64,000 nt of DNA from Halogeometricum rufum (GTDB lineage Archaea > Halobacteriota > Halobacteria > Halobacteriales > Haloferacaceae), in assembly GCF_900112175.1 (NCBI RefSeq), contig NZ_FOYT01000001.1, positions 992,001 to 1,056,000 of the forward strand, read 5' to 3'. The position numbers were made by a program, and so were the translations under genes. The notes beneath the pieces are model-generated. The model made no database searches. It worked only from the letters and a program-made list of their open reading frames with translations, and was not told the origin of the DNA. This document shows positions 5,671-15,341 of the stretch, piece after piece (position 1 is the stretch's first letter; the number at the start of each line of letters is the position of its first letter).

Positions 5671-6405
5671 TCAGTCGCTACTCTCCGCCGCTCCCTCGCC
5701 GTTCCCCTGTTGGAGGCGCTTCCACTCCTGGTGGCCCTGTTTGAGGATGTCGTAGGCGGCGTCGCGCGAGTCCCAGCCCTCGATCACGATCTCTGCGTCG
5801 CCGGGTTCCAGGTTCTTGTAGGTACGGAAGAACTCCTCGATGACGTTCTGCTGGTGTTCGGGGATGTCCTCACGCGCCTCGATGTGCCCGAACCGCGGGT
5901 CGTCGGCGGGCACGCCGATTATCTTGTCGTCTTTCTCGCCCGTATCGTTCATCCGGATGACCGCGACCGGGCGAAGGTCGAAGATGCAGCCCGTGAACAG
6001 TCCGTCCTCGGTCAGCGCCAGGAAGTCGAGCGGGTCGCCGTCGCCGCCGGCCGTCTGCGTGAAGAAGCCGTAGTCACCCGGGTAGACGACCGAACTGTAG
6101 AGCGCGCGGTCGAGTATGAAGCCCGGAATGTCCTTTCGGTACTCGTACTTGATCTGTCCGCCTTTCTCTATCGCGGCGACGGCCGTCGCCGTCTGCGGGA
6201 AGTTGTCGGTCTGTTCGACACCGTCGACCAGGTTCGTGGGTTCGTGAGAGCTCATCGAATCGGATCCGCCTTGCTTCGCGTGCGCGTTGCCGTCTTCAGA
6301 AGCTGCTGTGCGCCCAACTGCCGACATCCCTGCCAGGCTTCCCACGCCCGCGAGGAACGAGCGACGAGAGCCCGACGGTACCAGGCCGCTGTTGTCGTCC
6401 GCCAT
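5671..6405 (-). CDS. ppa: Inorganic pyrophosphatase with a Tat signal peptide (predicted exported)
   Basis: Hydrolyses pyrophosphate to two phosphates; soluble family I fold. All catalytic positions of the E. coli enzyme can be matched: K86/E88 (KYEY), R100, Y112, D122-x-D124-x2-D127 (DGDPLD), D154, D159, K161, and Y196-K197. The unusual part is the N-terminus: SRRSFL at 13-18 followed by a mild hydrophobic stretch and a polar linker to about residue 60, a twin-arginine export signal as on haloarchaeal secreted proteins. An internal ATG at codon 51 (MSSHEPTNL) could yield a cytoplasmic form, but no clear ribosome site precedes it. The gene is monocistronic with an AT-rich promoter. Confidence 0.9.
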   Translation of the reverse strand: MADDNSGLVPSGSRRSFLAGVGSLAGMSAVGRTAASEDGNAHAKQGGSDSMSSHEPTNLVDGVEQTDNFPQTATAVAAIEKGGQIKYEYRKDIPGFILDRALYSSVVYPGDYGFFTQTAGGDGDPLDFLALTEDGLFTGCIFDLRPVAVIRMNDTGEKDDKIIGVPADDPRFGHIEAREDIPEHQQNVIEEFFRTYKNLEPGDAEIVIEGWDSRDAAYDILKQGHQEWKRLQQGNGEGAAESSD

Positions 6406-6718
6406 GCGCCTACAGCTCCAGGCACGAAATTATTAGAATTTTATAATAGTCTAAAATAACACTAACACCAGAATGAATCAATGGGTAACGGTACATATTA
6501 ATCGAGGAGACGACTGTACGGAAATCGTACTAGTCTACCCCGTTCGTCGGTGAGAGCCGCTCTCTGTGGTATGCCCCCGTCGAAACACCGGCTCGGTTAT
6601 GTTTCCGAGTGCGGGGCTGACGGTACGCGCTGTACCGACCCCCGAGCAAAGCGTGGCCCGGGGTCAGCGGGAGGCGGGAAATGACCAGACGTTAGTCCGT
6701 CGGCCCGTAGCCTCCACC
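6406..6718. other. Intergenic region between divergent genes (313 bases)
   Basis: Unusually AT-rich for this genome on its left side (about 6420-6510), which carries the promoter of the pyrophosphatase on the minus strand. A perfect 6-5-6 inverted repeat (CGGTAC, GTACCG) lies at 6621-6637. A GTTAGTC element near 6690 sits about 30 bases before the threonine-synthase-like start and is a plausible weak TATA box for leaderless transcription. No convincing small gene was found; the open frame from 6566 is just the upstream extension of the next gene. Confidence 0.6.
6441..6450 (-). promoter_or_regulatory. TATA box of the exported pyrophosphatase
   Basis: Reads ACTATTATAA on the minus strand within a long A+T run, about 36 bases before the ATG, implying a very short leader. 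The strongest TATA-like element in this part of the window. Confidence 0.55.
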
Positions 6719-7974: not shown

Positions 7975-8694
7975 ATGTTGAGCGACGTGATGGAGGACTA
8001 CCTCAAAGCCATCTACCAGATAGAGGCGACGTCCGGTCCCCCCGTCTCTACCTCGGCCATCGCGGAGTACCTCGGGAAGACGCCGCCCACGGTCACGAGC
8101 ATGCTCGGGAAACTCGAAGAACGAGGGCTCGTCGAACGCGAGAAGTACAAGGGCGTCGAGTTGACCGCGGAGGGGGAGACGGTCGCCCTCGAGGTGTTGC
8201 GGCACCACCGCCTGCTCGAGTCCTACCTCGCCGAACACCTCGATTACTCGTGGAGCGAGGTCCACGAGGAGGCAGACGCCCTCGAACACCACATCTCCGA
8301 GGAGTTCGAACGCCGCGTGGCGGACGCACTCGGCAACCCGACCGTCGACCCCCACGGCGACCCGATTCCCTCCGCGGACCTCGCGCCCATCGAACACGAC
8401 GAGACGGACGCCCTGACCGACCACCCCGTCGGTGACCGCGTGGTCGTCGCGCGGGTCAGCGACCGCGACGAGGAGGAGTTGGAGTACCTCGCGGCGGCCG
8501 GCATCACGCCCGGAACCGCGCTCGAAGTCGTGGACGTGGCCCCGTTCGGGATGGTCACCGTGCGGACCGAAGGCGGCGACGAACAGAGCCTCCCCGACTC
8601 GGTGGCCGCGTCCATCCGCGTGAAGTCGCTGGAGGACGCCGACGCCGCGAGTGACGACGGAAACGGCGGCAACGGGGAGGTGCAGACGACGTGA
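7975..8694 (+). CDS. DtxR/MntR-family metal-dependent transcriptional regulator
   Basis: 239 residues: N-terminal winged helix (1-62, opening MLSDVMEDYLKAIY), helical dimerization and metal domain (about 63-130), and a C-terminal FeoA/SH3-like domain (about 155-215). Metal-ligand positions expected for the family are present: D8, H77/H78, E82, E98-E99, E104 and H105. With Mn(II) or Fe(II) bound it should repress transcription; the palindrome just upstream is the likely target. Its stop overlaps the start of the GDT1-type transporter by four bases (GTGA), so the two are one operon, which points to manganese homeostasis. C-terminal tail is low-complexity Asp/Gly/Asn. Confidence 0.9.
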   Translation: MLSDVMEDYLKAIYQIEATSGPPVSTSAIAEYLGKTPPTVTSMLGKLEERGLVEREKYKGVELTAEGETVALEVLRHHRLLESYLAEHLDYSWSEVHEEADALEHHISEEFERRVADALGNPTVDPHGDPIPSADLAPIEHDETDALTDHPVGDRVVVARVSDRDEEELEYLAAAGITPGTALEVVDVAPFGMVTVRTEGGDEQSLPDSVAASIRVKSLEDADAASDDGNGGNGEVQTT

Positions 8695-9398
8695 GCGGCT
8701 ACTGGGAGATAGTCGCCATCGCCCTCGTCACCCAGTTGGCGGTGCTGCCGGGCGAGAAGGTCCAGTTCATCATCGCCGGCCTCTCGACGCGCTACAACCC
8801 GCTGGTGGTCGTCGCCGCCGCGGGGTCGGCGTTCGCGGGGTGGACCGCGCTCGAAATCCTGTTCGGACAGGCGCTCCGGTCGGCCCTCCCGCCCGTCGTC
8901 CTCGACGCCATCTCGGCGGCGTTGTTCCTCACGTTCGCGGTGCTGCTCTACCGGTCGGCGCCCGACCCGAACGAACCCCACCGGGACCTCGCGGCGGAGA
9001 CGGACGGCGGGGTCGCGAACCTGACCGACCGGGTCGACCTGCCCGCCCCGTTGGACCGCCTCTCGGGGTCGTTCGGCGGGTTCGTCCCCATCTTCGCCAT
9101 GATGGCCGTCGGCGAGTTCGGCGACAAGACCCAACTGGTCACCATCGGACTGGCCGTCGAGTACGGCGCAACCTCGGCCATCTGGCTCGGCGAGATGCTC
9201 GCCATCATCCCCGTGAGCCTCGCGAACGCGTACCTGTTCCACACGTTCTCGCACCGGTTCGACGTGCGGAAGGCGCACTTCCTCTCGGCGGCCCTGTTCC
9301 TCTTCTTCGGCCTCGACACGGTGCTGGCGATGCTGACGGGCTTCTCCCTCTGGGAGACGGCCGTCGGCGTCGTCACCGCGGCGCTCGGATTCGCCTGA
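8691..9398 (+). CDS. GDT1/UPF0016-family cation transporter (putative Mn2+ exporter)
   Basis: 235-residue membrane protein with about six hydrophobic segments in two halves joined by an acidic loop (90-125). The family carries one ExGD[KR][TS] motif in each half; the second is intact here (E142-F-G-D145-K-T), but the first is L19-P-G-E22-K-V. Family members (MneA, TMEM165, Gdt1) exchange Mn2+ or Ca2+ for protons. Translation is coupled to the upstream metal regulator by a GTGA overlap, which supports a metal-efflux role under its control. The altered first motif may change ion selectivity. Confidence 0.85.
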   Translation: MSGYWEIVAIALVTQLAVLPGEKVQFIIAGLSTRYNPLVVVAAAGSAFAGWTALEILFGQALRSALPPVVLDAISAALFLTFAVLLYRSAPDPNEPHRDLAAETDGGVANLTDRVDLPAPLDRLSGSFGGFVPIFAMMAVGEFGDKTQLVTIGLAVEYGATSAIWLGEMLAIIPVSLANAYLFHTFSHRFDVRKAHFLSAALFLFFGLDTVLAMLTGFSLWETAVGVVTAALGFA

Positions 9399-14687: not shown

Positions 14688-15341
14688 CTACTCCTCGATG
14701 TCGTAGTCGCCGCCGTACTTCAGGAAGAAGAACGCGAGGCCGAGCGTCGCGACCATGGTGAACGTCGTGGCGATGCCGAGCGTCTTCGCGGAGTCCGGCA
14801 CCGACGGGACGTTCGACGGCGCGGGCGTCGAGATGGACTCGACGACTTCGATGGCGCCGAGCATCCCGGCGGACTTGTGGGGCGCGCAGTGGTACTCGTA
14901 CTCGCCGAGCGTCTCGAACGTGTGCTCGTAGGTGAAGCCCGTGTTCTCGATGGGTTCGTGGCCGGACCAGCCGGCGCCCTCGGGTTGGCTGTCGACGACG
15001 ATGTTGTGGTTGTCGGACTCCCAGTTGAACGTCACCGTCGTGCCGGGCGTAATCTGGAGCGGTTCCTCCGTCCCCGGCGTGAAGACGAGGCTGCCGTCCG
15101 GGCCGACGGCGACGGTCTCGCTCCCGCCGCCACCGCCGCCACCGCCGCCACCACTGCTGGTGCCGGTGCCCGTCCCCGCGGACGTGCCCGTGCTGGTTCC
15201 CGTCCCGGAACTGGTTGCGGTGCCCGTCGACGTCCCCGTCTCTTGCGCCGCGGCCGCACCGGACGCGCCGGCCGCCGCCGCCGTCCCGGCCGCAGTCGTG
15301 AGGAAGGCACGGCGGGACATCTCCGCGTTGCCGTCAGTCAT
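14688..15341 (-). CDS. Halocyanin (blue copper protein), Tat-exported and C-terminally membrane-anchored
   Basis: Small electron carrier outside the membrane. Order: Tat signal with SRRAFL (9-14); a low-complexity Thr/Gly/Ser linker (about 35-73) ending in a run of glycines; a plastocyanin-like domain (75-168) with type 1 copper ligands H112, C152, H155 and M160 (DNHN and HCAPHKSAGM); then a transmembrane helix near 187-209 and a short acidic tail. Architecture matches the halocyanin of the cytochrome b cluster at 30.8-31.4 kb, a paralogue. Adjacent to the CopD-like operon, so it may receive copper from there. Confidence 0.92.
   Translation of the reverse strand: MTDGNAEMSRRAFLTTAAGTAAAAGASGAAAAQETGTSTGTATSSGTGTSTGTSAGTGTGTSSGGGGGGGGGGSETVAVGPDGSLVFTPGTEEPLQITPGTTVTFNWESDNHNIVVDSQPEGAGWSGHEPIENTGFTYEHTFETLGEYEYHCAPHKSAGMLGAIEVVESISTPAPSNVPSVPDSAKTLGIATTFTMVATLGLAFFFLKYGGDYDIEE

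Follow-up and report, generated by a model that had tools for sequence, protein, structure and literature searches.

Why should a haloarchaeon encode a second pyrophosphatase that looks built for export? Soluble pyrophosphatases (PPases) are treated as cytoplasmic housekeeping enzymes. In the 64,000-nucleotide stretch of Halogeometricum rufum DNA analysed here (the window), a gene on the minus strand encodes a family I inorganic PPase with a predicted twin-arginine (Tat) signal at its N-terminus; a first-pass annotation had placed it at exactly 5671..6405, and our reading of the open reading frame agrees (ATG start, 244 aa). The protein matches PF00719 with an E-value of 3e-45 and 154 bits (cut-off 23.5) over residues 76-229 (5719..6180, minus strand). 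An AlphaFold model (35 sequences; mean pLDDT 79) predicts the OB-like beta-barrel fold of PPases, with pLDDT exceeding 90 across most of the domain (130 residues reach 90 or more); the model is confident after about residue 60, and residues 4-51 are disordered. Among solved structures, those of bacterial and archaeal PPases are nearest to the protein. All of the top 50 PDB matches to the model are inorganic PPases, and the best matches are of family I, with 3sw5 at E 5e-18. E. coli Ppa (NP_418647) and the archaeal enzymes 1qez and 1twl are alike in fold (TMt 0.85-0.89) and share the set of metal-binding Asp residues, but these three lack an export signal, whereas the window PPase has a predicted one.

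The predicted signal covers roughly codons 1-35 (6301..6405, minus strand) and includes a twin-arginine motif, SRRSFL, at codons 13-18 (6352..6369, minus strand). We scored it with our own rule set in the style of TATFIND: a twin arginine close to the N-terminus with a hydrophobic residue at position +4, and, after it, an uncharged and moderately hydrophobic stretch of at least 13 residues. The window PPase shows both features, with SRRSFLAG followed by 16 uncharged residues (SFLAGVGSLAGMSAVG), and when residues 2-50 were shuffled a Tat-like pattern arose in only 53 of 20,000 trials. Both features recur in the five relatives described below, whose uncharged stretches are 15-22 residues long and whose aligned motifs are PRRSFL, SRRSFL, SRRSFL, HRRTFL and GRRSLL; read two residues further, the six proteins have SRRSFLAG (window), PRRSFLAG, SRRSFLAG, SRRSFLLG, HRRTFLTG and GRRSLLQG. 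Both arginines, L18, G20 and G22 are unchanged across the six, and the remainder of the signal region is divergent. The claim of an N-terminal Tat signal made in the first-pass annotation therefore holds at the level of motif, rarity by shuffling and conservation. None of the six has a Cys among its first 50 residues, hence no lipobox, and in this, as in its twin-arginine motif and short uncharged h-region, the window PPase resembles the haloarchaeal Tat substrates that lack a lipobox (released proteins), among which no PPase was found described in the papers searched. The source genome has four TatC matches above the cut-off. Family I PPases with an N-terminal targeting extension have a precedent in eukaryotic organelles (plastid, mitochondrial and acidocalcisomal enzymes), although that extension serves organelle import rather than Tat export and is of independent origin.

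PF00719 matches two genes in the source genome (4.19 Mb, 99.8% complete), the window copy and an ordinary copy, L001 (C1:905233); no membrane PPase was found there. The ordinary copy starts MTNLWEDLETG, has no signal from that start, and scores 185 bits against PF00719 compared with about 155 for the window copy. A second, cytoplasmic copy, for which the first-pass annotation had advised a search, is thus present; with the cytoplasm served by L001, the window PPase is an extra. Tat-type proteins are 45-52% identical to the ordinary copy of their own genome. The two types (the ordinary one being L001 here and Ppa in Haloferax volcanii) belong to the same family and share 13 of 14 active-site residues, but the ordinary haloarchaeal enzymes carry no signal, always have the Glu equivalent to E. 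coli Glu20 and read DDEDP where the Tat type reads GDGDP, whereas the Tat type has a signal and has often lost that Glu. Tat-type domains are also less acidic in all six genomes (net acidity per residue 0.10-0.16, versus 0.185-0.198 in the ordinary paralogues).

Whether the N-terminal extension is general among haloarchaeal PPases, as the first-pass annotation had asked, was answered by searching 511 Halobacteria genomes (G000-G510) with PF00719, the window protein or a Tat-type profile. It is not: the Tat type occurs in 6 of the 511, each of which also has an ordinary PPase, and the search scores clearly separate the two, Tat-type proteins reaching 303-432 bits and ordinary copies no more than 234. 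The carriers are the source genome (G000), Halorubrum aidingense (G210), two members of one genus (G281 and G407), G395, and a member of another family (G037); within the source organism's own genus one genome in five has the gene. No Tat-type PPase was found in 204 non-haloarchaeal genomes of a phylum sample. The six Tat-type PPases, whose domains are 53-86% identical, group as a single clade (100/100) in a maximum-likelihood tree of 50 sequences; the clade has a long stem and sits among the other haloarchaeal PPases, with a point of attachment made unsure by long branches.

The same survey turned up other variations in PPase content. One apparent two-copy genome, G186, was set aside on finding that its copies are a single gene broken by stops or a frameshift (G186:C23:13203-14011); this is the only family I PPase found there, and its two frames with stops reflect either sequencing error or a broken gene. 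Neither a family I PPase nor a membrane PPase was found in three genomes of genus g11 (G066, G232, G401) and four of genus g53 (G150, G293, G330, G503). Each of the seven encodes a protein of ~311 aa with a DHHA2 domain, the kind present in family II PPases (loci L142-L144), and this protein apparently replaces the housekeeping family I enzyme cleanly in two lineages.

How the Tat-type gene came to be scattered in this way is suggested by its match in H. aidingense. A blastn comparison of the gene and its flanks with locus L064 gave a block with 83% DNA identity at 5692..6448 on the minus strand; the similarity starts at the TATA box and stops just before the stop codon, and the flanks are unrelated. 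The GC3 of the window gene is 0.83, against 0.90-0.95 for its neighbours. Domain identity between the window organism and H. aidingense is 82.7% for the Tat copies and 81.4% for the ordinary copies, whereas the Tat copies diverge more than the ordinary ones in all 14 remaining genome pairs; for the congeneric G281 and G407 the values are 85.9% and 93.0%, the Tat copies being about twice as divergent. Because the shared block, the unrelated flanks, the low GC3 and the unusually high Tat-copy identity occur together, the sequences point to horizontal transfer of a promoter-plus-gene unit. Between these two proteins dN/dS is 0.25 for residues 1-35, 0.48 for the linker and 0.18 for the domain (rough values, the regions being short), and both the signal region and the domain are under purifying selection.

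A plasmid or phage origin was considered and dropped, as matches there were to ordinary PPases only, at less than 60% identity; one Rhizobium plasmid match with a seeming N-terminal extension proved to be annotated with a later start and has none. Nor is there a conserved operon or phosphate-regulon neighbourhood: the window gene lies beside genes for an FAD oxidoreductase and a PLP enzyme, neighbours differ from relative to relative, G281 and G407 alone having the same ones, and among the six carriers no conserved neighbour links the Tat-type PPase to phosphate uptake. Elsewhere in the window, at 7975-9398 (plus strand), a cation antiporter gene of the GDT1 type is overlapped at its start by the gene for a DtxR/MntR-type metal regulator with a FeoA domain, likely a manganese homeostasis pair. 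At 14688-15341 on the minus strand, a further protein is encoded that starts in a Tat-like manner (MSRRAFLTTAAGTAAAAG) and continues with a long stretch rich in Thr, Gly and Ser.

The promoter region bears on which start codon is used. A TATA box, TATTATAAA, lies at 6440..6448 (minus strand), at -43 relative to the signal's ATG; the exact 9-mer recurs at -42 or -43 in 4 of the 6 Tat-type genes, and TATTATAAA-N31-36-ATG occurs once in the 4.19-Mb source genome. Since the remaining two genes (G407 and G395) have an ordinary TATA-like sequence near the same place, we dropped the idea that the 9-mer is a special regulatory motif. The internal ATG at codon 51 (6253..6255, minus strand), which the first-pass annotation had pointed out as a possible second start, is real, and a Met stands at the junction of signal and domain in all six proteins (position 51 in the window PPase; 51, 54, 54, 52 and 57 in the other five). 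One explanation for this conservation is dual targeting, in which the protein made from the first ATG is exported while a shorter one begun at Met51 remains cytoplasmic; a weak GGCGG precedes codon 51 in the window gene and would fit such a start. However, the sequence upstream of the internal Met, read in four of the six genes, is GC-rich with no conserved TATA box and no shared Shine-Dalgarno, the TATA-like element is positioned for the first ATG, and each of the six genomes has a separate cytoplasmic PPase. Ordinary PPases begin at about this place (e.g. MTNLWEDLETG), so the junction Met is probably the ancestral start codon, retained when the signal was added, which accounts for Met51 by inheritance. 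Given the cytoplasmic paralogue and the lack of conserved internal elements, we regard dual targeting as highly improbable, and beyond the conserved Met that proposal finds no support. The first-pass annotation had also held that a start at codon 51 in all homologues would refute the signal. Such a start is what the ordinary cytoplasmic orthologues have, but it does not extend to the Tat type; the latter forms a clade apart, in which a signal and a promoter of its own are conserved, so the start of the orthologues does not refute the signal.

It could also be argued that the signal is non-functional and that the protein is a redundant PPase that stays in the cytoplasm or is tethered to the membrane, given that the h-region is weakly hydrophobic (mean Kyte-Doolittle 1.4). 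Low hydrophobicity is, however, usual for Tat signals, and the twin arginine, the Leu that follows and the uncharged stretch have been kept even though the domains are only 53-86% identical; we therefore think a dead signal improbable. A further possibility is that the protein is exported but is not a plain PPase. We tabulated the 14 conserved polar active-site residues of the E. coli enzyme by mapping onto its Ppa sequence from NC_000913. Thirteen, including all the metal-binding Asp residues, are identical in every sequence compared. The exception is Glu20, which is Glu in E. coli, in 82 of 82 ordinary haloarchaeal PPases and in 10 of 10 other archaeal PPases but is Ala78 in the window PPase (codon 78, 6172..6174, minus strand), so that the earlier statement that every catalytic residue is kept has to be corrected to 13 of 14. 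Across the six Tat-type proteins the position reads A (window), E, V, V, E and T, and its loss, in four of six, is specific to this clade. The E. coli E20D variant that Volk et al. are said to have described in 1996 reportedly has weaker hexamers and reduced activity, and for this reason the change may alter assembly; that this could matter when a folded protein has to cross the membrane by Tat is a guess. Together with the faster evolution of the Tat-type domains, the loss of an otherwise invariant residue would fit another substrate (short polyphosphates or organic pyrophosphates) or an altered assembly, e.g. trimers rather than hexamers. Against this stand the strict retention of the other 13 residues, the presence of Glu20 in two of the six members and, in the window PPase, a Glu80 two residues further on that might partly substitute. 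We consider this departure from a plain PPase unlikely, though less so than either a dead signal or dual targeting.

The reading that we prefer, drawn from a Tat-type sample of six genomes, is that of an accessory Tat-exported family I PPase that hydrolyses pyrophosphate outside the cell for phosphate and has spread sideways; taken whole, we find it somewhat probable. Its parts differ in strength. Predicted export is very likely, and is well supported because the twin-arginine signal is kept in six divergent relatives, the TATA box is so placed in four of the six, a cytoplasmic paralogue is present in all six genomes and TatC is encoded in the source genome. That the enzyme hydrolyses pyrophosphate despite the Glu20 to Ala change is likely, and that phosphate scavenging is its main role has a little less than an even chance. 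Under this preferred reading, the second PPase would be transcribed from its own promoter, fold in the cytoplasm and then pass the Tat translocon, and cleavage by signal peptidase would leave a soluble enzyme of ~200 residues. Outside the cell it would hydrolyse pyrophosphate, and perhaps short polyphosphates too, to yield phosphate for uptake. A haloarchaeal PPase would have gained the Tat signal in a single event, upstream of its start codon, and the unit of promoter plus gene would then have spread, rarely and sideways, among haloarchaea. The earlier suggestion that the signal may have been acquired would thus be right insofar as the signal was joined once to an ancestral start and the whole gene then moved horizontally.

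No report of an exported, secreted or Tat-dependent archaeal PPase was found in open full-text papers, the scope of our search, and a term search found no exported form from prokaryotes in a 2024 review of microbial PPases (PMC11210485). A bolder and rather doubtful version of our proposal is that the Tat type is a rare, distinct class of exported soluble archaeal PPases, mobile as promoter plus gene, in which loss of Glu20 would be an adaptation to life outside the cell, through a smaller oligomer for Tat or a wider substrate range towards polyphosphate, giving its hosts pyrophosphate or polyphosphate as a source of phosphorus. Haloferax volcanii grows on exogenous polyphosphate (PMC13318637), and if the PPase described here is indeed exported, pyrophosphate would join exogenous polyphosphate among the phosphorus sources of haloarchaea. 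With both paralogues in one genome, moreover, the changes that accompany an enzyme's move out of the haloarchaeal cytoplasm could be tested cleanly.
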